Shown piece after piece: positions 1,281-21,772 of a stretch of DNA of 21,794 nt. The position numbers were made by a program, and so were the translations under genes. The stretch lies in IMG/VR virus record IMGVR_UViG_3300037246_000282, positions 1 through 21,794 of that record, one strand, 5' to 3'. The notes beneath the pieces were generated by a model that worked only from the letters and a program-made list of their open reading frames with translations, was not told where the DNA came from and ran no database searches. Each line of letters begins with the position of its first letter. Position 1 is the stretch's first letter. This stretch comes from a virus.

Positions 1281-1654
1281 TAAATCATATCCTCAACTAC
1301 AAACGTTGCTTTATACTCCTCAAAACTAGGGGCATCATCTGGTTTTCCATCACTCCATCTAACTATATCTAAAACAACCCGTTCTTTCATATCTGTAGGA
1401 ATAATTTCACTAGAAACACTTTGTACTAAGTCTTCAACTGTACAATCTAAATGCTCTCTTACGTGATTTTGGATTTCTTTTTCAATCCTACCAACTTCTA
1501 ATAAAACCATTTCTATATGCGCATAAGATATATTTAGTTTAGTAAATATCCAGCTTAGAGTTTTTCCACTATCTAAAGCATTATATATTTTTAATAATGT
1601 TTGATTGTCTAAATCTGCCAATACTTTAGTTTGTGTTTTTCTTTTAAATAACAT
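1280..1654 (-). CDS. Conserved-type hypothetical protein, 124 aa
   Basis: I do not recognise the family. The protein starts with a basic stretch (LFKRKTQTK), then a helical segment (about residues 13-60) that could hold a helix-turn-helix-like fold (LDSGKTLSWIFTKLNISYAHIE), then an acidic C-terminal half. The start is well supported: CAGGAG lies 7 bases before the ATG, inside the last codons of the upstream 491-aa gene (GGA GAA TAA), so translation is probably coupled. Its stop overlaps the start of the LamG-type gene. Lying between two virion proteins, it could be a small structural protein, an assembly factor or a tail-fibre chaperone. No function is claimed. Confidence 0.75.
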   Translation of the reverse strand: MLFKRKTQTKVLADLDNQTLLKIYNALDSGKTLSWIFTKLNISYAHIEMVLLEVGRIEKEIQNHVREHLDCTVEDLVQSVSSEIIPTDMKERVVLDIVRWSDGKPDDAPSFEEYKATFVVEDMI

Positions 1655-1656
1655 AT

Positions 1657-3132
1657 TTATTCTCCTGTACTTCTAATATGACCTTGAGCTTGTACTCTAA
1701 AACTTACTAATCCCGATATATCATCTCTTAATTTGATTCTTAAACCCTCTCCAGACCTTAATCTGAAAACAGTTCCTCTTTTATCTTCTCCGCCGAAAGT
1801 TATTCTAAATCTAACCCCCCATACCGTAGATGGAGTTGTCCTATCTGTATATATTAAATCAAATCCTTCAATTGCAATTTCATCATTATTATGAACAGTA
1901 AATGTGTTTTTTATAATACCATTTTTTCTACTAAATGTCATCCCATTTAATAAAGATGGTAAATCACCAAATAATCCATCATTAGGTTGAGTAGCTACTA
2001 TCATAGTACCTGTAATTCTATGTATATCTATTTCAAGCCCACTTGTAGCGCCTACATTAACTTCAAAATCTCTTTCATTTACTGCTGCGCCTGAAGCATC
2101 TACATTCATTTCTCTACTAAGAAATATAACAGTGTCCCCAGCACTAAACGCGAAGTCTAAAGGTGCATCTAATAATAAAGTAGCTGTAGCTGTTGCAACA
2201 GTTGTTAAATTTCCAAAGTAAAACCTATTTTCTCCAGACCCACCAGAAAATATACCTATAGTAGTTCCCACAGGAAGAGTCACAGCAGAACTTAAAGTAA
2301 TTGTTGTGTCATCAATAGCAACTGGATTTAATAATGCGTTTGGTGGTGTCCCTTCTGGTTCTGTAAAATAGAAACCAACAGAATCATTATCTTTTGTGTC
2401 AGTTATTACAACTGGCGGAGATACACTTTCAGCAGAGGCTCCATATCCAAGAGCATAGTCAATTGAAATAGTTGAAGCAGGTGAACCAATTAGAGCTGCT
2501 CTAGTTTGTATGTCAAGATATGATAATGTATTAGAAATATTATAAGTAAGTACCACAGTTTCACTTTGATTTGGAAAACAATATGTTTGCTGTCCTTTTA
2601 GTGGTAAGTCATATGAAATCAAATCATCTTCAGTTTTTTTGGCTAATATTTTGAATTCAGCACGGTCTGCTGCAGTCCCTTCTGTAAAGCTTAAAAAAAT
2701 AGTTAATGTAGTGAAGTTTTCAGCACTTACAGTATTTCCTTGTTTTATCCAATCCGTATTTGAAACCCCAATATCAGAATCAGTAACAAGAGATTGAGCT
2801 GGCAGTTGTTTAGCCCATGCTGGAGTTATAGTCGCTGTTCTTTGAGCTTGTAAGTCATAGTCAGTAGTCACCTCACCAATATTAAAATCTATTGCAAGGT
2901 TATCAGCGTCATCCATTGAAGATGTATCAAAAGTTAATGTTAAAACATTACTCGCAATAGGGCCTCCTAAAGAAGGTTTATTAAATTGATATATAATCTT
3001 ATTATCTGTTACGTTTGTAATAAGTCTTATTTGTTCTAACTGAACCGTCCCCAAATCTGAGAATGTTATTGTCCCTGCGGCGGCATCAAATTCTGCACTA
3101 CCCTTATCAACTCCTACTAATATATTACTCAT
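1657..3132 (-). CDS. Beta-rich virion structural protein, 491 aa
   Basis: A long Ser/Thr/Asp-rich, beta-prone protein without transmembrane segments. The N-terminus (residues 1-75: NILVGVDKGSAEFDAAAGTI, then ITNVTDNKIIYQF and LTFDTSSM) has the look of a widespread phage structural-protein N-domain. Residues about 275-340 form a small beta module (TITLSSAVTLPVGTTIGIF ... AGDTVIFL) that resembles segments in the adaptor and tail-fibre proteins here. The C-terminal part (about 345-487) is a further beta domain ending in LRDDISGLVSFRVQAQGHI. A strong AGGAG lies 7 bases before the ATG, in a 17-base initiation region identical to those of the coat gene and the 207-aa gene. It is likely an exposed head or tail accessory protein. 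The exact role is unknown. Confidence 0.82.
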   Translation of the reverse strand: MSNILVGVDKGSAEFDAAAGTITFSDLGTVQLEQIRLITNVTDNKIIYQFNKPSLGGPIASNVLTLTFDTSSMDDADNLAIDFNIGEVTTDYDLQAQRTATITPAWAKQLPAQSLVTDSDIGVSNTDWIKQGNTVSAENFTTLTIFLSFTEGTAADRAEFKILAKKTEDDLISYDLPLKGQQTYCFPNQSETVVLTYNISNTLSYLDIQTRAALIGSPASTISIDYALGYGASAESVSPPVVITDTKDNDSVGFYFTEPEGTPPNALLNPVAIDDTTITLSSAVTLPVGTTIGIFSGGSGENRFYFGNLTTVATATATLLLDAPLDFAFSAGDTVIFLSREMNVDASGAAVNERDFEVNVGATSGLEIDIHRITGTMIVATQPNDGLFGDLPSLLNGMTFSRKNGIIKNTFTVHNNDEIAIEGFDLIYTDRTTPSTVWGVRFRITFGGEDKRGTVFRLRSGEGLRIKLRDDISGLVSFRVQAQGHIRSTGE

Positions 3133-3142
3133 TGTTATTCTC

Positions 3143-3607
3143 CTATAATGCTATTGCGTATGGAATAGGGTCTTCAACAACCTCTTCCCAATTTGTTGCG
3201 TCTAAATCTGGTGCTGTACTTATTGTTGTCCCAGTTGTATTGCGATAAAGAATCCCGTCATAAACCAAAACGTCTTTTATATTTATATCTACACCAATAC
3301 TTAAAAAGTTAGTCCACTCTCCATCCTGTATGTTTACTAAAGTAGCGGCGTCTTCTGCAAAAGTAACTTGCAAGGGAATTGATTCCCAAGTGATTCCATC
3401 TGAGATATAAGTTCCCTTTGGATGTGCATAAACAGTTTTTAATGGAGTTCTCCAATCCCAACTACCACCAGAATTTTCAGCAACATAATAGATGTCATCT
3501 TTATTAGATAGACCTGGGGTTGGTAGGTTGGCATAAACGTCAACTCTACCATTTATTAAACTAGCCAATTCTATTGCTGTAATACCCTTAATAACTGTTG
3601 TAACCAT
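3143..3607 (-). CDS. Small virion/tail accessory protein with carbohydrate-binding-like segment, 154 aa
   Basis: The protein has two short aromatic-rich modules. The first, about residues 22-80, includes ANLPTPGLSNKDDIYYVAEN and SDGITWESI, a pattern common in phage tail proteins. The second, about residues 112-145, includes DVLVYDGILYRNTTGTT and DLDATNWEEV. The second resembles the short chitin-binding type (CBM5/12-like) repeats often found at the ends of phage fibres: a Y-x-G-x-x-Y core followed by a W. AGGAG stands 6 bases before the ATG. It sits between two beta-rich virion genes with short gaps, and its TAG stop lies next to the ribosome binding site of the 491-aa gene. It is probably a fibre or decoration component. 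The resemblance is from pattern recognition only. Confidence 0.75.
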   Translation of the reverse strand: MVTTVIKGITAIELASLINGRVDVYANLPTPGLSNKDDIYYVAENSGGSWDWRTPLKTVYAHPKGTYISDGITWESIPLQVTFAEDAATLVNIQDGEWTNFLSIGVDINIKDVLVYDGILYRNTTGTTISTAPDLDATNWEEVVEDPIPYAIAL

Positions 3608-6098: not shown

Positions 6099-8066
6099 TT
6101 ATTCGTCTCCTATAATGTTTGAACCATAAGCACCTGATTGAGATGCTAGAATTGATTTAAGGAACGGGTCTAATTGTCTTGTTCCACTTAAGATATTTTC
6201 TGCTCCGCCTCTTGCCATTTGATTAAGTCCTAGCATAGCTCCACCGCCCACCGCTCCAGCTCCGAAAGCTAAAGGTGCAGATACCGCCCCACCAACTCCT
6301 AGCGCAGCAGTTGCCGCTATGTTTCTTGGAGTCATAGCTTCTTTAACCGCCTTAGCACCTGATTTATAAGCTAATTTCTTGTCTATCGATTTGTTTATTA
6401 ACTGAAGATTTTTATATACTCCAGATTCTTTTTCTAATACGCTTTGCATTCCATCTGCTATTTCTTCACCAAACTCACTTTTAATTGAGTCATAATTTTG
6501 GAAAGTATCTAATCCTTCTGCGAAGTTTCTTGACATTCTTCCTTTTAATGAAGTCATATTTTCTGCTATTTTCTTTTTAGAAATAGATTTAGCATAATTA
6601 GTATTAATATTTGCATAATCTCCGCCTAACTCTTCAAAGTGAGTGTTTATTTGTTTTTTAAGAGTATCAGCATATCCACTATTTGCAGTGTTTTTTCTAC
6701 CTTCTTCTGCTAGTTTGCTCTTTACGTCTTGCATAACTGCCACTGAATTTTTAGGTAATTTTTTAAGCTGAGGATTATCCTTTATTGCTCTTATATATGC
6801 TGTGTTTGCTACTCTATCTAAATCTTTATCTCCAACATTAAAAACATCATCCATCAAGTCTTTTCCAACAGATTTACTTTTATTAGTGTCAAACCAACCT
6901 TGATAATCTTTTTTAGCTACCTTTTGTAAACCTTCAACATCATCCACACCGAAAGTATTAAGAACTGATTTTTGTACTCTACTAGGAGTGTTCTTTAATT
7001 CTTGAACTATCTTAGGTCTTGCTTTACTAGCAATCGCCTTACTAACATCAATCCCTTGAGATACTTTACTTGTTAATTTTTCATCACTTGCAATTTCTAA
7101 AATAGTTTTTGCAGGTGTTTTAGTTGTAGTTAAATGTCTTGCAAGATAAACAGCGTTATCTTTTACTTTTTCTGGAATACCTTTTTCAACAAGCTTTCCA
7201 GTTCCTTTAAGAACCTTACCAACCCCTTTAGCCAATGCAGGTGAAACAACACCCAGTCCAGCGCCTAAGGCAGTTGAAGCTATATCTCCATCTGATTCAC
7301 CAAAAGCACCTAATGCTCCAGCGCCAGCTCTTCCACCCATTGAAGCGGTTGCCCCTAATGCTTTACTTCCTATTAGCTTACCAACACCAGAGCCTCCCAT
7401 TACTGAACCTGCTATTCTAGCCATAGTTTCTGCAGTTCTTGCTTCAGGTGGCATTTGTTCATATTCTGCGTCTATTTCTGCCATAACTTCTTCATAAGAT
7501 TTGTCAGTCAACCCAGCTCTTATACCAGCTTCTATTTCGTCTGCAAATCCACCAGCCAATCCTAATGAAGCAGCGTCTAATGCAAATTTTCCACCAGACC
7601 TTAGTGCATTTTTAACATTTACAGGGTCTATTAATTCTTTTCCAAACTCAGACATAATCCCTGGTTGGTTTTCTAAACCTTGTTTTGAACTTATTAATCC
7701 AGTTACATCTTCAGGTGTCATTTGTCTTCCGTAAGCTTGTTGTATTGCTTCAGGGTTTAATCCTGCTTGTTGTAAAGCTTGAATGTTTTGAGGGTCTAAT
7801 GGTTGTATTTCTTGAACAGGAGCAATAGGTTGTTGAACTGTTTCAATAGGAGCTTCTGTAGATACTTGAGCCTCCTGAGGTGCTTGAATACCTAAATCAT
7901 AACCTTTATCCGATAAAAATTGCATAGCCTTTTCTTTAGGCATACCAGAAGCTTTCGCTTTCTTCATAAAATTTCTTGCTTTATCGTCTAATTTCTTTTT
8001 TATCTTTGATACCAAGCTTTCTTCTTTGAGAAGCAATATTTCTTTTCTTTTGTTGTATAAAAGCAT
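6099..8066 (-). CDS. DNA ejection protein (P22 gp16 position), up to 655 aa
   Basis: A large internal virion protein, near P22 gp16 in length (about 609 aa) and third in the ejection block. The N-terminus is basic. Residues about 70-125 are Gln/Pro-rich. There are several Ala/Gly-rich hydrophobic stretches (DAASLGLAGGFADEIEAG, GGRAGAGALGAFG, near the C-terminus AATAALGVGGAVSAPLAFG), typical of proteins ejected to span the envelope. The start is uncertain. The ATG at 8066 overlaps the previous gene by 86 bases and has no clear ribosome binding site. Alternatives in frame are TTG at 8015 and ATG at 7967, the latter 14 bases past the upstream stop; neither has a good site. The function is inferred from position and composition. 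Confidence 0.82.
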   Translation of the reverse strand: MLLYNKRKEILLLKEESLVSKIKKKLDDKARNFMKKAKASGMPKEKAMQFLSDKGYDLGIQAPQEAQVSTEAPIETVQQPIAPVQEIQPLDPQNIQALQQAGLNPEAIQQAYGRQMTPEDVTGLISSKQGLENQPGIMSEFGKELIDPVNVKNALRSGGKFALDAASLGLAGGFADEIEAGIRAGLTDKSYEEVMAEIDAEYEQMPPEARTAETMARIAGSVMGGSGVGKLIGSKALGATASMGGRAGAGALGAFGESDGDIASTALGAGLGVVSPALAKGVGKVLKGTGKLVEKGIPEKVKDNAVYLARHLTTTKTPAKTILEIASDEKLTSKVSQGIDVSKAIASKARPKIVQELKNTPSRVQKSVLNTFGVDDVEGLQKVAKKDYQGWFDTNKSKSVGKDLMDDVFNVGDKDLDRVANTAYIRAIKDNPQLKKLPKNSVAVMQDVKSKLAEEGRKNTANSGYADTLKKQINTHFEELGGDYANINTNYAKSISKKKIAENMTSLKGRMSRNFAEGLDTFQNYDSIKSEFGEEIADGMQSVLEKESGVYKNLQLINKSIDKKLAYKSGAKAVKEAMTPRNIAATAALGVGGAVSAPLAFGAGAVGGGAMLGLNQMARGGAENILSGTRQLDPFLKSILASQSGAYGSNIIGDE

Positions 8067-12531: not shown

Positions 12532-13470
12532 TTATGAAGCACCTTCAGAACCGACTATAGCTCTTGGGTCAAAGCAAGTGAAAGAATATCTTTCAGAACC
12601 TTTGAACTTCATGTTTTCTGTATCAAAGTCGTTGTCTTCAGTGAATTCAACTTCTCTTCTTTGGTAATTAACTAATCCGTTAACATCAGTTCTAATAAAC
12701 CAAGCATCAGCATCAGTTAAGTAGTCATTTGTTACAGGCATTAGTTTACCTTGGATAGCATTGATTGCATTAGTATTAGTAATAGCAGTCGTACTAACTG
12801 AAGCAACAGTAGTCTGAAGATTAGACTTCAAGATTCTTTCTGCTTCATAAGTATTTTCAGAAGAAACGATTAGAGATTCTCCTTTAGCTGCGATAATCTT
12901 ACCTCTATCATCTGTGAACTTTCTAATTTGAATTAGAGCAGTTTCTACAGAAGTTTCAGATAAATCAGCCGCAACAGCTAATACATTTGAAAAGTCACCA
13001 GCTTTAGTTGGATGGTCAGCAGCTAACATTGCTTTACCGTCTCCATAAGTAACACCAGTATCAAAACCGTTGTTATATATGTTTGCAGCAACTAATTCTT
13101 TAGTTTGTCTCATAGATTTAGCCAATTGACCAGCTCTTTTGTTTAACATACCATCTAGTAAGCCTGGATATTGGTTATCTTCCATTTCTTCTCTAGTGAT
13201 TTGGATACCTAAAGCGTAAGTAACGTTATCCGCTCTATTTACATATCCTTGACTCATTGAATCATATTTAACAGAAGCACCTTCTGGTTTAGCAGGTGCA
13301 AGACCTGTTCCAGTAGACAACACATCTTCTTCGTAAGCTCTGCTTGAAGAAACTGTTTCAAATAAATAGTTACATTGTAATGGTTTTTCATCGTAAGAAT
13401 CTCCAAACCATCCTTTAACGCCTTCTTTCAAGGCTTTAGGGAAACTCCCTCTATTAATTATTCCACTCAT
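12532..13470 (-). CDS. Major capsid (coat) protein, 312 aa
   Basis: The protein has the features of an HK97-fold coat of the type with a conserved AADHPTKAG segment (residues 159-167). Earlier parts show the E-loop-like region (SRAYEEDVLSTGTGLAPAKP) and QITREEMEDN. Helical spine residues follow near QIRKFTDDRGKIIAAKGESL, and the C-terminus ends in GSERYSFTCFDPRAIVG. It is shorter than the P22 coat (430 aa), so only the gene order is P22-like here. AGGAG lies 7 bases upstream in a 17-base initiation region shared with two other virion genes, suggesting high expression. It follows a decoration-type gene, with the scaffold further upstream. It is a prime candidate substrate of the phage chaperonin, by analogy with T4 gp23 and gp31. 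Confidence 0.9.
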   Translation of the reverse strand: MSGIINRGSFPKALKEGVKGWFGDSYDEKPLQCNYLFETVSSSRAYEEDVLSTGTGLAPAKPEGASVKYDSMSQGYVNRADNVTYALGIQITREEMEDNQYPGLLDGMLNKRAGQLAKSMRQTKELVAANIYNNGFDTGVTYGDGKAMLAADHPTKAGDFSNVLAVAADLSETSVETALIQIRKFTDDRGKIIAAKGESLIVSSENTYEAERILKSNLQTTVASVSTTAITNTNAINAIQGKLMPVTNDYLTDADAWFIRTDVNGLVNYQRREVEFTEDNDFDTENMKFKGSERYSFTCFDPRAIVGSEGAS

Positions 13471-13485
13471 TGTTATTCTCCTTTA

Positions 13486-14067
13486 TTATACGCCAGCTGT
13501 GTTGTTAGACTCAGTGTGGTTGTTAATTATTACTTCAACTTTAGCGTTTGCACCTAAAGCATTGTTTTCTTCGTTTACTAATTTCAATATTTTAAATTGA
13601 AGAGTAGCAGTAACAGCGATGCCAGTACTCTTGATTTCATCGCCTGACAAGTTAGTTATTGTATCAACAGTTCCTAACGTTCTATCAGCGTTCAAACCAA
13701 CGTTTACAGCAGCTAATGTGCCATCATATTGTGCTTCAAACACAACTCTTGGGTCATCTACTACGTGAGCAACTCTATCTACACCAGTTTTTCCGTAAAC
13801 AGAAGACTCATCTGATAGAGGTTCAAATCCAACTACAACACCAGTAACAGCTCCATTTGTAGCAGCGATGCCAGCAGCAGGCAATGTACCAGCTTTATAC
13901 CCTTGAATTGTAGCAGTGTTAGTTGTACCGCTTTTTAGTATACAGTCTCCCAAACCTACGTTTGCAACTGTTGAAGGAATGAAATATTTAGTAACTTTTC
14001 CGTTCCAACCATATCCGTCTTTAGACTCAATCGGTCTTAGTCCGAATGCTTTATCTTTATTTGCCAT
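13486..14067 (-). CDS. Head decoration/structural protein adjacent to coat, 193 aa
   Basis: The N-terminus (MANKDKAFGLRPIESKDGYG) is of a type common in podoviral and metagenomic phage proteins next to the coat gene. The rest is beta-rich with Gly/Val/Thr strands (AAGIAATNGAVTGVVVGFEP, VVDDPRVVFEAQYDG) and ends in a low-complexity Asn/Thr stretch. There is no membrane segment. AAGGAG precedes the ATG, and the coat gene begins 15 bases past its stop. Proteins in this slot are usually capsid-associated cement or decoration proteins. That role is inferred from position and composition. Confidence 0.75.
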   Translation of the reverse strand: MANKDKAFGLRPIESKDGYGWNGKVTKYFIPSTVANVGLGDCILKSGTTNTATIQGYKAGTLPAAGIAATNGAVTGVVVGFEPLSDESSVYGKTGVDRVAHVVDDPRVVFEAQYDGTLAAVNVGLNADRTLGTVDTITNLSGDEIKSTGIAVTATLQFKILKLVNEENNALGANAKVEVIINNHTESNNTAGV

Positions 14068-14151: not shown

Positions 14152-14646
14152 TTACTTAGTTTTATAATTACCTTCTACTTTTGTTTTTTGTTCATTAATG
14201 ATGTCTTCAGTTTGACGGACTAACTTACCCTTTTCCTTTTGGTCTGCTTCGTGCCACTCTTTCTTCTTCGCCATTAATATTAGACCATACTCGTTGTTAC
14301 GATTATCTATGCCACCGTGAACGACTACTTGACTTCCTGATTTACCAGTTTTTTCTTTTGCAAGTTCGGAATTATCTACGATAAACCAATCTTCATTAGT
14401 TAGCTGGTTAATTCTTGATGAATTGTTTTTAGCCCATCTATATGTAAAGCGGGGGTCTTGGGCATCTGCTGAAACTTCCAGTTTGCCTCTCCCTCTAGAG
14501 ATGGATTTTCTCTTTCTTTCTCTATCATACTCTTTATTTAATCCGTTGTCAATAGTTTTTTCAACTTTTTCTTCTTTCTTAACAACTAGTACTTTTTCTT
14601 CAGCTTCCACTTGTTTCTTTTCAGCTTGTTTTTTTAATCTAACCAT
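14152..14646 (-). CDS. Charged conserved-type phage protein between scaffold and coat, 164 aa
   Basis: The first 50 residues are a highly charged Lys/Glu/Arg helix (for example KKQAEKKQVEAEEKV). A compact domain follows with ADAQDPRFTYRWAKNNSSRI (residues 60-79), LTNEDWFIVDN, QVVVHGG and NEYGLILMAKKKEWHEADQK. Proteins with the RW-x-N...R-I...G-W/Y pattern occur in many phages just upstream of coat genes. Their function is not known to me, but they may assist head assembly. GGAGG lies upstream of the ATG, with the scaffold gene ending 2 bases before. The C-terminal tail is again basic. Confidence 0.72.
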   Translation of the reverse strand: MVRLKKQAEKKQVEAEEKVLVVKKEEKVEKTIDNGLNKEYDRERKRKSISRGRGKLEVSADAQDPRFTYRWAKNNSSRINQLTNEDWFIVDNSELAKEKTGKSGSQVVVHGGIDNRNNEYGLILMAKKKEWHEADQKEKGKLVRQTEDIINEQKTKVEGNYKTK

Positions 14647-14648
14647 TA

Positions 14649-15533
14649 TTAATCCTCCTTATAAACAGCTTCAAATTCAGCCATTCTTGTTTTTCTATAA
14701 TCTTTTATTTCTTGAGCCGTCGCCCCTTTACGTTCTCTTCTTTTAACATCAGCATCTATGTACCTTTTAACAGTAGCCATATCTTCTGCAGGAATAGAAC
14801 CTTTATTATTAGTCTTAGTATTAGCAGTCCCATTTTGTACAGTGTAAGATTGGTTGTTAGGGTAAGCAATGTTCTTAGCTTGTTTAATAATCTCTGCAGT
14901 TGGTAAATACTTGTTAGTATTATAAATATTACCTACTGTTTGTTGGAAGCCCATAAACTTAATAGGATCTGTTTGTTGAAGTTTAATAGCCTCGTCGGTT
15001 ACTAACCAACCTTGCCATTCTTGAACTTTCCTCTCAGCTTCTTGTTGTTCAAACTTAGCAGGTGTTTCTTTCTCTACTTTTTCTTGAACCTCAATGTCTT
15101 TAAGTTCGTTCTTAAATTCAATAACCTCTGCTTGTTTTTCTTTTACAGTTTCAACATCAAAGTCAGCTTCTGCTTTAGTCATTTTCTTTTCAGCTTTATC
15201 GATAGCCTTTTGTAAATCAACCTTATGCCTTTCTTTTTGTTTAGTTGTAAAGTCAGTGAAGTGCTTAGATTGTTGGCTTACTGTCTTAATCAACTCATCA
15301 TTCTTATCTGCAAGCTTCTTAAGATTTTGTCTTAATACTGGCATCTCATTGAAAGTATCACCTAGATAATCCTTAGCAGATTTAGCTTTTGATGGGTCAC
15401 CTGCAAATTCTTCAGGAGATTTCCAGCCTTGAGATGTTGCAAACGGTCTAGCTTGCTCTTCACTCATACCATTTATTTCTTCAGTTGTTAAGTCCGAGAA
15501 CTTCTTCTCAACGTGTATGTTTTCCTCAGTCAT
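14649..15533 (-). CDS. Capsid scaffolding protein, 294 aa
   Basis: A hydrophilic, mostly helical protein rich in Lys, Glu, Ala and Gln, with a long coiled coil at about residues 75-175 (DLQKAIDKAEKKMTKAEADF, EKQAEVIEFKNELKDIEVQE). It ends in a basic helical segment (DADVKRRERKGATAQEIKDY ... RMAEFEAVYKED). P22 gp8 is similar in size (303 aa) and binds coat through a basic C-terminal helix-loop-helix. Position between portal and coat, length and composition all fit. AAGGA precedes the ATG directly after groES. Sequence similarity to gp8 itself cannot be judged by eye. Confidence 0.82.
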   Translation of the reverse strand: MTEENIHVEKKFSDLTTEEINGMSEEQARPFATSQGWKSPEEFAGDPSKAKSAKDYLGDTFNEMPVLRQNLKKLADKNDELIKTVSQQSKHFTDFTTKQKERHKVDLQKAIDKAEKKMTKAEADFDVETVKEKQAEVIEFKNELKDIEVQEKVEKETPAKFEQQEAERKVQEWQGWLVTDEAIKLQQTDPIKFMGFQQTVGNIYNTNKYLPTAEIIKQAKNIAYPNNQSYTVQNGTANTKTNNKGSIPAEDMATVKRYIDADVKRRERKGATAQEIKDYRKTRMAEFEAVYKED

Positions 15534-15534
15534 A

Positions 15535-15843
15535 TTATTGTTCCTTTTTTTTGTTTAATGCGAAAATATCTATATCTTGAATTATTCGATACATAACATC
15601 TCCATCCTCTATACCATCCCCAGAGTGTTCAGTGAAGTAAACCTCATCTCCCTCGCTTGGAATGTTATCTCTCAAATGGTTAAAGGCATTTTCTCCCACC
15701 TTTAATATTATACCATTATTTTTTTTGAAGGCGTTTCTAAACTTAATGTCAGTATTAAGTACCAGACCACCCTCAGATTCCTTTGTGTCTTTTAAATCAA
15801 CCGCAATCAATATGTGGTTATGAACTGGCATTAGATTTTTCAT
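15535..15843 (-). CDS. groES: Phage-encoded GroES-like co-chaperonin (Cpn10), 102 aa
   Basis: The protein aligns along its whole length with GroES (97 aa). MPVHNHILI (residues 5-13) matches RPLHDRVIV, SEGGLVLN (23-30) matches the mobile loop SAGGIVLT, NGIILKVGE (43-51) matches GEVLAVG, EGDEVYF (64-70) matches VGDIVIF, and QDIDIFA (89-95) matches SESDILA. The GroEL-docking tripeptide IVL is present as LVL (27-29). The segment after it is longer than in E. coli, and a roof-hairpin region (51-64) is present. GroES caps GroEL rings in the cytosol during protein folding. The gene overlaps the 87-aa gene by 26 bases, with GAGG 9 bases upstream, and lies right before scaffold. The partner groEL-like gene is about 4.5 kb upstream, which is unlike the usual groESL operon. 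Confidence 0.92.
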   Translation of the reverse strand: MKNLMPVHNHILIAVDLKDTKESEGGLVLNTDIKFRNAFKKNNGIILKVGENAFNHLRDNIPSEGDEVYFTEHSGDGIEDGDVMYRIIQDIDIFALNKKKEQ

Positions 15844-16081
15844 CTTCTTTTTCCTCTACTATATGTTCTATTTTTGACGTTATTATTTCCTCTATCAATT
15901 CGATTTGTGTTTTAAGTGTTAAGCTTAACTTAAAGAACTTTTCCATATCTAACGATTTAACATCTAGGCTTGTAAGTATTTTCTTGCGCTCATCAACATA
16001 ACTTTGAAGATATGAGAAAAATAATTTACCCATCTCCTCATTTTTCCAAGTCTTTAATTGTGCGTTTGTATATTCACTCAT
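15818..16081 (-). CDS. Small helical protein between portal and groES, 87 aa
   Basis: I do not recognise the family with confidence. The sequence is almost entirely helical and charged (NAQLKTWKNEEMGKLFFSYL, SLTLKTQIELIEEIITSKIE), with an acidic Glu/Lys/Ser tail and no membrane segment. A strong AGGAGG precedes the ATG, and its first base coincides with the last base of the portal stop. Its end overlaps groES. Small helical proteins are common between portal and scaffold genes in podoviruses. It may be an assembly factor, but nothing in the sequence proves this. Confidence 0.72.
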   Translation of the reverse strand: MSEYTNAQLKTWKNEEMGKLFFSYLQSYVDERKKILTSLDVKSLDMEKFFKLSLTLKTQIELIEEIITSKIEHIVEEKEDEKSNASS

Positions 16082-18018
16082 TATTTAATTCCTCCTTCCA
16101 TATCGTTGATTGTTAGTTTCTTCCCTGCTAAAGATGATAGTTCAGCCTTTTCTTTTTTAAGGTCTTTATCCTTAGCACTAATATCAACTATCTTTGCCAA
16201 AGCATTTACTCTTGCAGTAAGTGTGTCATTCTCAGCCTTAAGGGCTTCTACATTAGCCTTAGAGATTACCTCAATATCTCTTCTCTTGTTATCCTCTTTA
16301 ATATTAACAGACTGCATATCAAGTAATTGTTTTTGGCTATTCATTAATTGTAATTGAAGTTCTGCCATAGGGTCTGGTTGTGGTTGTGGTGGCTCTGTCA
16401 TAAAGTCAGGAACATTACCAACCTTCAATGCTTTAAGATAAAACTCTGTTGCTTCCTTTGCATCGATATATGGGTTGTCTAATCTAGCTTGATAAACAGC
16501 ATTTGCTCTTGTTATGTTTTGACCTTCTGTTAATGAGCTTGAACCGTTTACTGGTTCTATTTTGTAATCCTTGCTTTCTTCAAGGTCTTTAGCGTTTGCC
16601 TTACCATAATCCATTACATCAAGGTATTCATCTTTGCTTCCATATTTGTTTTCAAAGAATAATATCTTTTGGACTTCTTCTCCTAATGCTCTATGTATTC
16701 TTTTATAGATTGCCTTGAACTCATTAAGTCCTTGCTCTATCATATAAAGAGTAGTTGTTGCTGGAGTATTCATTCCAACACTTTCAGGATTGATATTTTT
16801 AATTGATGTTATTTCTTTAGCAGATTGAGTCAATGTACCCAATAACAAGAATAAAGTTTGAGAAGGTTCTTTACCTGTAAGCTCTACTATGTTGTTCTTT
16901 AAGTCCATAGCTTCGGGTATCATTTTATATTCACCCATCTTAACTCTTAAAGAACTCCCACTCTTTAATCCTGAACCTCCACCGATAATACCACCTTGAG
17001 TATTTGCAAGAGTACCAGCATCAATCAATTGATTAATAATAGAGTTGATAGTTTTATTCAATGGCATTAGCAATTGACCAAAGCCAATATCATACATTGA
17101 GTTAGTAGCGTCTTTAATGAATGGATATTTAGTGAAGTGTTCAATAGGTTCAATATTTATAACTTCTTTCTTACCGTTAAGCTTAACCATATCAGCGTCA
17201 AACCTTTTAACCATACTTAAGAATTGACCTTCTTTCATATAGGTAGCAACATAAGGTTCTTTGTATCCATCTTCATCAAGGTCATAATACATATGGTTTT
17301 CACACACTACATATTTTGTATCTTCATTAAGTTCTTCTAAATCAATCTCTACATAAACACCTGCTCTGATACGACTTACGATTTCACTTTTACTTAGTTC
17401 AAACTTATGTATCTTTATATCAGCAGACTCAAGAGACATTGCGTCGCTTATGATTATATCTTTAAAGTCAATTAATTCACTCTTAACTTTGCTTTCAATA
17501 GTACAGTAATAAGTCTTTTTAAATTGAGCCCCCATTAAAGCAAGCTTATTAAACATATAGTCTGTTGACTCTTCCCAATCATCTATACCGTATTTCAATA
17601 AGTAGTTTGTATATTTAGCAACTCTTTCAGCTTTGTCAGTCTTTCCTAAAGGTTGCATTTTAGCACCCTCTTCAGATTGATTGTCGATAACTTCTATCTC
17701 ATCTGCACCAATAACCACACCCTTAACGATGTCGTCTTGAAGTATTGCAGTACTTAACATTGCAGCAATTGAATTTGATTCGCTTAATATTAAAGGATAT
17801 TTAACATTACTTGCTCCTTCCCAAGGAAAGTTTTTCTTTGGCTCGTCTCTTTGAATCTTAGAGTGTTTAATAAGCTCTTCGTGTTCTTTAGTTCTTGCCT
17901 CGTGTTCTTTCATATCATTAGCAGATTCTGCCTTAATATTGTTTAGTAAGCCCTCTTTGTCCTTGTCTTTCATTTTATCAAGTATATTTGTACTCAATAG
18001 TATTTTATCTAGTTTCAT
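16081..18018 (-). CDS. Portal protein, 645 aa
   Basis: A podovirus-type portal that forms the dodecameric ring at the unique capsid vertex, through which DNA enters and leaves. The motif NFPWEGASNVKYPLI (residues 63-77) is a hallmark of this portal group near the N-terminus. The core has typical alternating helices and strands (FPKE-like clip region not separately resolved by eye) and GIGGGSGLKSG-type loops (IIGGGSGLKS). The C-terminus, about residues 551-635, is a long coiled coil after a Pro/Gln-rich hinge, comparable to the helical barrel of P22 gp1 (725 aa). AAGGAGA lies 7 bases upstream, inside the end of the 48-aa gene. The position directly after terminase supports the call. Confidence 0.92.
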   Translation of the reverse strand: MKLDKILLSTNILDKMKDKDKEGLLNNIKAESANDMKEHEARTKEHEELIKHSKIQRDEPKKNFPWEGASNVKYPLILSESNSIAAMLSTAILQDDIVKGVVIGADEIEVIDNQSEEGAKMQPLGKTDKAERVAKYTNYLLKYGIDDWEESTDYMFNKLALMGAQFKKTYYCTIESKVKSELIDFKDIIISDAMSLESADIKIHKFELSKSEIVSRIRAGVYVEIDLEELNEDTKYVVCENHMYYDLDEDGYKEPYVATYMKEGQFLSMVKRFDADMVKLNGKKEVINIEPIEHFTKYPFIKDATNSMYDIGFGQLLMPLNKTINSIINQLIDAGTLANTQGGIIGGGSGLKSGSSLRVKMGEYKMIPEAMDLKNNIVELTGKEPSQTLFLLLGTLTQSAKEITSIKNINPESVGMNTPATTTLYMIEQGLNEFKAIYKRIHRALGEEVQKILFFENKYGSKDEYLDVMDYGKANAKDLEESKDYKIEPVNGSSSLTEGQNITRANAVYQARLDNPYIDAKEATEFYLKALKVGNVPDFMTEPPQPQPDPMAELQLQLMNSQKQLLDMQSVNIKEDNKRRDIEVISKANVEALKAENDTLTARVNALAKIVDISAKDKDLKKEKAELSSLAGKKLTINDMEGGIK

Positions 18019-18178: not shown

Positions 18179-19786
18179 TTAATAACCGTCTTTTGGACCA
18201 TTATATTCTGTGTGTTCTCTTTCTTCTTTTTGAGGAAAAATTAAATTTATATCTCTTATCCTTGCTAGTGCGTCCAACATATCGTCGTGCTTACCAACAG
18301 GGAATGATGTGTATTCTAGTTTGAATGACTTTGTTAAGTCAACAATCTTCTTTTCATAGTTTTCGTACATAAGTTCTACTGGTATGAATATTTTCCTTGC
18401 TTCGAAAAGGGGTTGTAATGTATCTCTTATCCTATCTTCCTTAGGGATTCTTCCTCCTAAAGCTTCAATTCTAAAGTGGTACATTTCCTCTTTCATTCTT
18501 TCCTTAATATTGTGGACATCTGACATTAGCCCTATTTCTTCGTATCCAACCCTTAAAGGTTTATACTCTCTATGTAATTCAAATAACATATCTATTCTTT
18601 GTGTAGGGTTTAATCTATCCCTTACTATGTCAAGTAAGTATATGTTTCCATCTCCCTGAGTACCAATAACCATATAACAAGAGTAATCACTTGTCTTCTT
18701 CTTTGCGTTAGCTGGGTCAACTAATATGTACTTAATCATATTTGAATGGTCATATCCTACAGCTGGGAAATACTCAAGGTGTTTAATGTTAAATCCTTTT
18801 GCCTTATCTCCCTTTGGATTAAGTAGGTTTTGACAATGTGTAACATATGAACCCTGGTCTATCTTCTTCTTTTCCCATTGCTTTTCACTTAAGAAGATTG
18901 GCTTACCATTCATAGTACCGTCATCTGTGGCAGGGATTGTTTCTACCTTAGTTCCTCTGTCTATTATCTCGCTGTATGTATCAAACAAATGATATCGAGT
19001 TCCTGCATATCTTTTGATAGTTCCCTTCTCTGTCATCATACCCAAGTTATCGGATAACTCCCATCTCTCAGTAGTCTTGTTAATCATATCTTCTGAAGTA
19101 ACTGAGTTCTCTGTAACAACATCATCAAACGAATGTATGTCCGAGTGGAATCCTGTCTTTTGTGAATCAACTAATCCGAAGGCATAGAATGATGGCTCTT
19201 TACGAGTAGTCTTTCTCTTAACGTTTATTCCGTCTTGTTCATTCCATTGAGTAGATTGCTTCTGAGGGTGTTGGTATAATACATCAGGGAATAACTCTCT
19301 TAGTAGCACGTTTGTTTCTAAGATATATTTAATCTGTTTTAAGAATGATTTGGCAACACCAAGGTTATATGATATGATGGCTATGCTTATCTCAGGCTCT
19401 TTTAATATGTCTTGTATGTTTAAAGCTGTCGTGATAGTCAAAGACTTTAAGTGTCCACGAGCAACCAACCAAAGCTTATTAGGCTCTTTCTCTACTCTCT
19501 TACAGAAGTTAAAAGGAAACTCTGCACATCTTAACGCGTGCTTATATAGTTTATCTATCTCATCTTCACTGTTTTGTTCTTCTGTTTGTTTTCCACTATC
19601 ATCTAATATATATCTATAGTCTTCTCTGTCGATAATAGGATTGTAGAAATCCATTCCAAGGATAAACCAACATAGGAAAAACAAGTCTTCCTTAACAAGT
19701 CTTCTCATTATACCATTACGCTCTTTTACTGATAGAGTTTCTAAGTGGTCTACTAAGTCAAAATATTCTTGTCGGTTGTTTAGCAT
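18179..19786 (-). CDS. terL: Terminase large subunit (TerL), 535 aa
   Basis: The packaging motor has ATPase and headful or site-specific nuclease domains. The ATPase half shows a Walker A variant ARGHLKSL (residues 109-116), a Walker B region ending in SFDD (219-222) and the coupling motif GTRYH (262-266). The nuclease half shows a first acidic strand YILVDPA (353-359, D357), YEEIG (415-419) and HDDMLDA (500-506), which together form the RNase H-like metal site. It acts on the portal in the cytoplasm. The start overlaps the TerS stop (TAATG) with only a weak AAGAAG ahead, so coupling to TerS is likely. The length is similar to P22 gp2 (about 499 aa). No frameshift or missing motif is seen. 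Confidence 0.95.
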   Translation of the reverse strand: MLNNRQEYFDLVDHLETLSVKERNGIMRRLVKEDLFFLCWFILGMDFYNPIIDREDYRYILDDSGKQTEEQNSEDEIDKLYKHALRCAEFPFNFCKRVEKEPNKLWLVARGHLKSLTITTALNIQDILKEPEISIAIISYNLGVAKSFLKQIKYILETNVLLRELFPDVLYQHPQKQSTQWNEQDGINVKRKTTRKEPSFYAFGLVDSQKTGFHSDIHSFDDVVTENSVTSEDMINKTTERWELSDNLGMMTEKGTIKRYAGTRYHLFDTYSEIIDRGTKVETIPATDDGTMNGKPIFLSEKQWEKKKIDQGSYVTHCQNLLNPKGDKAKGFNIKHLEYFPAVGYDHSNMIKYILVDPANAKKKTSDYSCYMVIGTQGDGNIYLLDIVRDRLNPTQRIDMLFELHREYKPLRVGYEEIGLMSDVHNIKERMKEEMYHFRIEALGGRIPKEDRIRDTLQPLFEARKIFIPVELMYENYEKKIVDLTKSFKLEYTSFPVGKHDDMLDALARIRDINLIFPQKEEREHTEYNGPKDGY

Positions 19787-20268
19787 TATTTCTTCTTAAC
19801 CTTATTCATTGTTTCTTTAAATGCTTCGTCTGATACTTCGTTTATTCCTAATATTCCAGTAACATTCTTTTGCTCTACATATATCTGAGCTATTTTACCT
19901 TTTAATTCTTCCGCTTTTAACATAGGAGCTAAGTCAGCCTTTTTCATTCCCTCAACAGGTATTCCACCAACTATAACAGGGCTATTCTCAGCAAGTTTCT
20001 TTATTCTTTCTAATTCCTTAAAAGACTTCTTAGCATAATCTTTGAATATATCTTCTAATGGTCCTCTTAGTTCTTCTAGCCTTTGTATTACATTTGTATC
20101 TGATAATAGTTGAGAAGCATTACTTGAAAGAGAGCTATCTTTACTTGATTTGGCTTGGTTAGGATAGGCATTCTTATAGCACTGTAATATAGTTAAGTCT
20201 AATAGAGGTTGAGTTTCTCTTTTAAATAACTCATCTGCAAATCTTATCTTTCCACCTTTATCTGCCAT
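19786..20268 (-). CDS. terS: Terminase small subunit (TerS), 160 aa
   Basis: TerS recognises phage DNA and presents it to TerL. The N-terminal half (about residues 25-70) has the typical small-terminase pattern QCYKNAYPNQAKSS, then SNASQLLSDTNVIQRLEELR, a helix-turn-helix-like DNA-binding unit found in many TerS proteins. The second half is helical with a basic C-terminus (NKVKKK). The length matches P22 gp3 (162 aa). TTAGGAG lies 7 bases before the ATG, inside the 20-aa mini-ORF, and its stop overlaps TerL. It directly precedes TerL, as expected. Confidence 0.88.
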   Translation of the reverse strand: MADKGGKIRFADELFKRETQPLLDLTILQCYKNAYPNQAKSSKDSSLSSNASQLLSDTNVIQRLEELRGPLEDIFKDYAKKSFKELERIKKLAENSPVIVGGIPVEGMKKADLAPMLKAEELKGKIAQIYVEQKNVTGILGINEVSDEAFKETMNKVKKK

Positions 20269-20331: not shown

Positions 20332-21699
20332 CTATTTCTCCATTACATAAGCAGTGTTTAGAAGTAGTTTTGATATACCTGTTGCGCTCTCTAATGTTAT
20401 TCTTAATACCTTAGTAGAATCATATATACCATCATCTGTGAATTTTTCTGCTCTAAAGTCATATACTGAATTGTTTCTAAGTAGTCTGAAAATTAAGTAC
20501 TCTGTTTTTAGTTTAGAGTATCCTGCATTTTTACACATTTGTATGAATAGAGATTTTAAAGGTTTTCTTAATAACTTAACTTCTTTAGATACTCTTAAAA
20601 AGACAACTCCTCCACCTTGGCAGTATCCCTCCTCGAATGAACTCATTGTAGACCTTAATGCATCATCATACCTATCTAGTTTTTCTGTGACTTCTAATCT
20701 TGATGGAGCTCCTACATAAAAAGTAGCAACCTTACTTATTAATTTATCCCAATCTTTCTTTTTAACTTCTGACGGTTTGTTTTCTATTGTCTTGTCGTGA
20801 ACAAATACAGTCTTATCTTTTTCTAGGATTACTTTCTTACATTGCCCTAACCAATCTTTGTTTATATCATATGATGATTTACCTTGGTTACCATCTATTA
20901 CGAAGGCATTTGTAAGCATAGCTATATTTTCGAACTTATTGTCTACATCTGTTGTTGATACTATTGCTATTTTTGCATTTTTTTGCTGGCGGTTTATTAT
21001 GAATGTTGATATCACATCAGTATCTACTTTATCACACACTATAATTAATGGGTGTTTTTGTTTTAAAGCAATTTCTTCTGTTATTTTAAGGATTTGGTTT
21101 ATTCCCGCTAACTCATCTTTACAAACCAAGATATAAGGGTTTTCAAATACTTCTGATTTAAACTTCAGCATATCAGGAGATACTACTCCATCTCCTATTG
21201 AATAACCACTGTCTATTACGTAATGAGATTTGTTAGAATCTGATATCTCAAAGGTAACACTTCCGTCTTTACCTATCTTATGACATACTTCAGAAACGTT
21301 TTTAGATATCTCTTTATCGCCATTTGAAGATATACTTGCTATATCATATAGATTAGCTTTTGTTTTTATTGGTTTTGAAAGTTCTTTTATGTGTTTGTTT
21401 ATTAAATTTATTTCCACATCTAATTGAGAGGAAATTCTTTGAAAGTTTTTGTTTTTAAAATGATTGTAAATTGACTGAGCTAATACAGTTGAAGAAGTTG
21501 TACCATCACCAACATCATCTAATGTTTTTAAAGATACTTGTTTCATTATTTTATCAGATAGAGAATTTTCAGGAAATGCTTTTGCAACAGATACGCCGTC
21601 TTTTGTTATGTAACCATCAGGAAGAATAATATTCTTTCCTTTAGCTCCAAGTGTTAATTTAACAACATCCGCTATTTTATCTATATTTATTTTTCCCAT
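20332..21699 (-). CDS. groEL: Phage-encoded divergent GroEL-like chaperonin, 455 aa
   Basis: It aligns with E. coli GroEL (548 aa) over nearly its full length. The ATP site is kept: TLGAKG (16-21, for TLGPKG), ITKDGVSVA (31-39; D34 equals D52), GDGTT (64-68; D65 equals D87), DDALRST (345-351; D346 equals D398) and GIYDSTKV (424-431; D427 equals D495). EEG and GGGV (357-365) are also kept. The first 14 or so residues and the C-terminal GGM tail are absent, and about 19 residues are missing before YVGA (328-331). In the apical groove, Y199, Y203, F204 and L237 become V172, D176, M177 and T207, while L234 and V263/V264 stay hydrophobic. It is the first gene after a strong promoter and is upstream of terS. 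It probably folds virion proteins with the phage GroES. Confidence 0.95.
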   Translation of the reverse strand: MGKINIDKIADVVKLTLGAKGKNIILPDGYITKDGVSVAKAFPENSLSDKIMKQVSLKTLDDVGDGTTSSTVLAQSIYNHFKNKNFQRISSQLDVEINLINKHIKELSKPIKTKANLYDIASISSNGDKEISKNVSEVCHKIGKDGSVTFEISDSNKSHYVIDSGYSIGDGVVSPDMLKFKSEVFENPYILVCKDELAGINQILKITEEIALKQKHPLIIVCDKVDTDVISTFIINRQQKNAKIAIVSTTDVDNKFENIAMLTNAFVIDGNQGKSSYDINKDWLGQCKKVILEKDKTVFVHDKTIENKPSEVKKKDWDKLISKVATFYVGAPSRLEVTEKLDRYDDALRSTMSSFEEGYCQGGGVVFLRVSKEVKLLRKPLKSLFIQMCKNAGYSKLKTEYLIFRLLRNNSVYDFRAEKFTDDGIYDSTKVLRITLESATGISKLLLNTAYVMEK

Positions 21700-21743: not shown

Positions 21744-21772
21744 ATAATATCAAACTTAATATTAAAAGTCAA
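21744..21772 (-). promoter_or_regulatory. Sigma70-type promoter for groEL and the late operon
   Basis: On the minus strand, TTGACT (21772-21767) is separated by 17 bases from TATTAT (21749-21744), a near-consensus pair with ideal spacing. Transcription would start about 21737, giving a leader of about 38 bases before the groEL ATG at 21699, with GAGG 7 bases before it. All downstream genes face the same way, so this promoter could drive the whole block. Confidence 0.75.

Follow-up and report, generated by a model that had tools for sequence, protein, structure and literature searches.

Results

Gene order in the head module

The window, by which we mean the whole stretch of DNA analysed, comprises the 21,794 bases of an IMG/VR virus record and is possibly a fragment. 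From groEL to the coat gene every gene lies on the minus strand, and the order of transcription is groEL, small terminase, large terminase, portal, an 87-residue open reading frame (ORF), groES, a presumed scaffold, two ORFs and coat:

21744..21772, minus strand: weak sigma-70-like site (TTGACT-17-TATTAT), which precedes groEL by about 45 bases
20332..21699, minus strand: divergent, short GroEL, 455 residues, recognised by Pfam Cpn60, PHROG 5725 and its fold model
19786..20268, minus strand: small terminase-like protein, 160 residues
18179..19786, minus strand: large terminase
16081..18018, minus strand: portal, SU10-type, 645 residues
15818..16081, minus strand: ORF of 87 residues in the portal/GroES interval, where most relatives have a small ORF
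15535..15843, minus strand: GroES/Cpn10 co-chaperonin, 102 residues, mobile loop KESEGGLVLN
14649..15533, minus strand: presumed scaffold, 294 residues, so named from its position and a similar-looking neighbour in relatives
14152..14646, minus strand: ORF of 164 residues, position conserved across relatives
13486..14067, minus strand: ORF of 193 residues, PHROG 37556, position conserved
12532..13470, minus strand: major capsid protein, 312 residues, Phage_capsid_4/Mu gpT-like, presumed folding client

The groES gene lies downstream of groEL across a gap of 4,488 bases, in agreement with the initial annotation, which had put the two about 4.5 kb apart. That annotation had also placed groES between portal and scaffold, next to scaffold and coat. 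The interval is right and groES does adjoin the presumed scaffold; on the portal side, however, the 87-residue ORF intervenes, the scaffold label is positional (14649–15533 gave no family match in family profile searches), and coat lies about 2.07 kb downstream, with the presumed scaffold and another two ORFs in between. Because sigma-70-like sites are no commoner in the window than in shuffles, we do not rest an operon claim on them. Elsewhere in the window, positions 6099–8066 encode a 655-residue protein without a PHROG match, which by its position is possibly an internal or ejection protein.

A GroES of known kind with an intact mobile loop

The gene at 15535–15843 encodes a genuine GroES, with the GG-LVL motif that had been read from it. 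Its product scores 41 bits against Pfam Cpn10 (E 2e-10), above the curated cut-off of 21.1, and also matches PHROG 3188 ("co-chaperonin GroES"), and its only sequence match in the PDB is a bacterial GroES. The AlphaFold monomer model (pLDDT 83) matches the folds of Mycobacterium tuberculosis Cpn10 (Z 10.7), Thermus thermophilus Cpn10 (Z 10.4) and T4 gp31 (Z 10.0). The mobile loop, KESEGGLVLN, carries an intact GGLVL motif, GG followed by a hydrophobic tripeptide, and residues 21–40 form a low-confidence stretch of the model, as fits a flexible loop.

This motif had been noted as needed for docking on GroEL; it does not show docking on the phage GroEL. The form GG-[ILV]-x-[LIVF] is equally retained in most of 70 relatives, including those that have no GroEL, and since the latter would have to use the GroEL of their hosts, the motif cannot indicate which ring is capped. 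In two relatives (L004 and L017) the loop is lengthened or unusual, without the usual GG-I-x-L form. The acidic flank of the window loop, KESEGG as against KTKGG in most relatives, was considered as an adaptation to the phage GroEL and was not used; relatives vary there too. The window GroES is a typical representative of a known kind; what is striking is how well its position is conserved.

GroES holds a conserved slot across the coat lineage

The coat protein matches 21 phage records, and we examined 14 of these regions. Whole-record searches found GroES in all 14 genomes, and in 12 it occupies the same slot, in the order portal, small ORF or ORFs, GroES, presumed scaffold, ORFs, coat. The 12 are pelagiphages HTVC023P and HTVC027P, Planktothrix phage Pag-Yong1, Alcaligenes phage QDWS535, Roseobacter phage CRP-902, Caulobacter phage RW, DSL-LC04, 023Pt_psg01 and four Manatee Spring genomes. 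The exceptions are MW202601, where groES lies elsewhere, and vir526, where it precedes the large terminase. The latter (L014, 1027–1383; host given as Methanomicrobiales) is an archaeal virus that shares this coat lineage and carries groES; GroEL is absent from many archaea.

Larger samples, which partly share contigs, gave the same picture. At IMG/VR loci found through the coat protein, GroES lies 1,853–2,310 bases before coat on the same strand in 57 of the 57 where both are seen, the upstream part of the others being cut off; the window distance, 2,065 bases, falls within this range. GroES was encoded in 42 of the first 50 IMG/VR relatives, the other eight being mostly cut off upstream of coat, and in a sample nearer to the window it was present in 115 of 115, at 1.5–3 kb from coat in 111. 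Contigs of bacterial and archaeal genomes have GroES 1.5–3 kb from coat at 66 of 80 loci; most of the remainder are cut off upstream, one (L231) has GroES at 4.4 kb, and two (L247, L251) are without it. The module also occurs in bacterial chromosome contigs, probably as prophages, from Gluconacetobacter (L192–L204), Zavarzinia (L186) and Sphingomonas (L211 and L231). The nearest relative of the coat protein (54%) is on JANQNH010000038.1 (L185), a contig that binning assigns to a Nanoarchaeia archaeon; misbinning is likely, and the bin's single GroEL-family match is of thermosome type.

A tblastn search of phage records with the window GroES gave no match at E 0.01. This is not a true absence, since GroES is recovered from all relatives by profile search; the GroES alignment is too variable to serve as a scan query. 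In HTVC023P-type pelagiphages GroES has been counted among the core genes (PMC9599517), and it is marked in CRP-901-type phages as well (PMC10149686). On these comparisons it is an ancestral gene of the head module. Because GroES keeps its slot across a very large lineage, its location does point to head assembly, as the initial annotation had proposed.

GroEL is real, divergent and exceptional in the lineage

The product of groEL scores 98.7 bits against Pfam Cpn60 (cut-off 34.3) and 264 bits against PHROG 5725. Against the NCBIfam equivalog TIGR02348 it reaches 218 bits, below the cut-off of 582, and it is therefore a divergent homologue rather than an orthodox GroEL equivalog. Its monomer model is a complete three-domain chaperonin, with Z scores that reach 37.5 across about 445 residues and a match to GroEL of the GroEL-gp31 complex (2cgt) at Z 36.6 and rmsd 3.2.

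None of the relatives searched carries such a gene. GroEL was found in 0 of the 14 phage genomes (whole-record search), in 0 of 100 IMG/VR relatives (whole records, some of them fragments), and at 0 of 58 portal loci whose sequence reaches more than 4 kb past the portal on its upstream side, the place of the terminases and groEL in the window; among the IMG/VR relatives, no other locus had a GroEL in this position. The two genes had been seen as a pair that evolved together and then separated, a view that relatives keeping only one of them would speak against. Such relatives are the rule here: all 14 genomes have GroES without GroEL. GroES sits in the slot of relatives that lack GroEL, so it is the older of the two in this setting, and GroEL is, as far as these genomes tell, the exception, either added later or kept in very few members.

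In a tree of 89 GroELs the window protein could not be placed, its branch (4.8) being the longest of the 89. Its best sequence match in the PDB, a reconstructed Fibrobacteres-Chlorobi-Bacteroidetes ancestor, is an origin hint only. There are 235 phage records with a match to it, about 30% identical in the best case, and its relatives are encoded in at least 587 IMG/VR stretches, with GroES often adjoining GroEL in the best 80. Single-protein scans of IMG/VR yielded no close relatives of GroEL, GroES or either terminase.

A gene at the end of a contig might have been joined to it in assembly from another phage, and no independent contig with the groEL-small terminase junction was found. We consider a chimera quite improbable: groEL lies 63 bases from the small terminase gene on the same strand, its third-position GC content (GC3) is near that of its neighbour, and its codon usage is in line with that of the remaining window (z 0.7). 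By this measure groEL does not stand out as a recent foreign gene or as a chimera.

A compact GroEL with a reversed inter-subunit ion pair

At 455 residues GroEL is shorter than all 87 comparison sequences, the shortest of which has 487. Compared with E. coli GroEL, several segments are missing: most of residues 1–17 together with the N-terminal strand, part of the stem loop at 42–47, residues around 104–108 and 425–440, which include inter-ring contacts, some of the helix K-L segment, and the C-terminal tail beyond residue 522. At the inter-ring sites, the K105-V107 and E434 regions are deleted and R452/E461 are replaced by I/S. All the ATP-site residues checked are intact (T30, K51, D52, D87, D398, GGG414-416 and D495), as are the ion pairs D83-K327 and E409-R501.

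The inter-subunit pair R197-E386, a key to GroEL allostery (PMC3326522), is reversed (R197D and E386R). An acid at 197 occurs in 0 of the 87 other GroELs, and a base at 386 in one, which has Q at 197. Five of 44 conserved-charge columns are reversed (R197, K226, D253, R368 and E386), and by our own arithmetic the chance that five random reversals include both R197 and E386 is about 1%. K226E/D253K is a candidate second reversed pair. E386 of E. coli GroEL has a second partner, K80, in the ATP state (PMC3326522); K80 is retained in the window protein and would repel R386. In this single sequence on a very long branch, the swap fits a working ring of its own that would mix poorly with host subunits.

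The long branch also raises the question of decay. GroEL retains 65% of near-invariant positions as against a median of 99% in other GroELs, and this, with its length, is what a gene losing its function could look like. Against this stand an open frame, the full three-domain fold of the model, the intact ATP site and the fact that the change at R197/E386 is paired, not random, and we give a functionless GroEL very little chance.

The surface that would meet the lid is mixed. Four positions at which E. coli GroEL binds substrate and GroES are altered (Y199V, Y203D, F204M and L237T), while L234, I259, I263 and I264 in helices H and I are still hydrophobic. A secondary source lists these positions among experimentally reported functional residues (PMC2741606). 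The four changes could mean poor docking of GroES.

Comparison with other phage chaperonins

The closest parallels in gene order are the HTVC023P-type pelagiphages and CRP-901-type roseophages, which share the head module and the GroES slot with the window and, unlike it, were without GroEL in the genomes searched. T4 gp31 and RB49 CocO resemble the window GroES as lids of GroES type with a mobile loop and a proposed role in coat folding, although their sequences are too distant from it for a match; in T4 and RB49 only the lid is supplied (PMC9598537, introduction). The conserved slot shows a lid encoded with the head genes, as expected of the gp31 type.

Both genes are present in Cellulophaga phage phi40:1 and in the Flavobacterium elemo and immuto phages. 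There, in contrast to the window, the two are adjacent or nearly so, lie outside any portal-scaffold-coat cassette, and encode a GroEL of about full length. Phage phi40:1 has in addition a second, partial Cpn10 match (KC821612.1, 50241–50423), distant from its groES-groEL pair. The initial annotation had suggested looking for other split pairs, and such pairs do occur, two examples being Vibrio phage D506 (OZ195882.1), with groEL at 93.5 kb and groES at 18.8 kb, and a T4-like contig (L159), with groEL and groES (1604–3244, 7278–7577) 4 kb apart among replication-type genes that include a clamp loader-like ORF. Among the 114 relatives checked, none has GroEL. The adjacency seen in bacteria and in phi40:1, elemo and immuto is what would recommend an acquired bacterial groESL operon that was split afterwards. 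Synteny contradicts this, because GroES holds its slot in relatives without GroEL and so predates it, and we attach next to no credence to a split operon.

The chaperonins of phages EL, OBP and AR9 are likewise divergent GroELs with altered contacts, single-ring or ring-splitting, and that of AR9 is a BFVD fold match of the window GroEL. They function without a co-chaperonin (PMC7185714, PMC9598537). The R197-E386 pair is lost in EL and OBP, has the usual sense in AR9 and is reversed in the window. These phages suggest an alternative in which the window GroES serves host GroEL only and the phage GroEL folds other clients unaided. GroES without GroEL throughout the lineage and the changes at Y199, Y203, F204 and L237 speak for it; the hydrophobic residues kept in helices H and I, the shared strand and late gene run of groEL and groES, and a pair kept in reversed form where EL and OBP have lost it speak against it. 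We judge this alternative unlikely, if far from negligible. Given the mixed GroEL surface and the co-chaperonin-free precedents, use of the phage's own ring by GroES, at least in part, is ranked only moderately above it.

Discussion

The reading we favor, with a probability of roughly 0.6, is that the gp31-like GroES of the head cassette caps a GroEL ring for coat folding and that the compact GroEL forms a ring of its own with the phage GroES. The lid would have been inherited together with the head-assembly cassette, and the coat protein, perhaps with other head proteins, would fold inside the ring that it caps. In the relatives that ring would have to be the host's. In the window phage, a compact, fast-evolving GroEL heads the same co-oriented gene run; most likely it forms its own ring, from which the reversed ion pair would exclude host subunits, and this ring, perhaps a single one, would act on head proteins together with the phage GroES. 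The protein is a compact, divergent and apparently self-sorting chaperonin beside an inherited lid, and independence of this one phage from the host folding machinery is possible.

A fuller history may be sketched tentatively, and we regard it as doubtful taken as a whole: the lineage long used its own lid on host GroEL and later gained a compact private barrel for head proteins, possibly a single ring, whose swapped charges keep host subunits out and which is fitted to the phage lid.

That GroES is a core gene, and that some phages carry both genes, was already known. What is new is that an ancestral GroES of the head module is joined by an added GroEL that is compact and charge-swapped. The most relevant earlier work is reportedly a 2017 survey of virioplankton chaperonins, which may partly overlap the present findings.

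Taken together, these results show the GroES lid to be an almost invariable component of the head cassette across a phage group that is both very large and widespread, and this constancy means that coat folding there probably depends on replacing the host lid. The window phage is a natural experiment in which a lid from GroEL-less ancestors stands beside an added, altered barrel. The system allows tests of how lid and barrel co-adapt, and of whether the reversal of one ion pair separates two chaperonins in the same cell.
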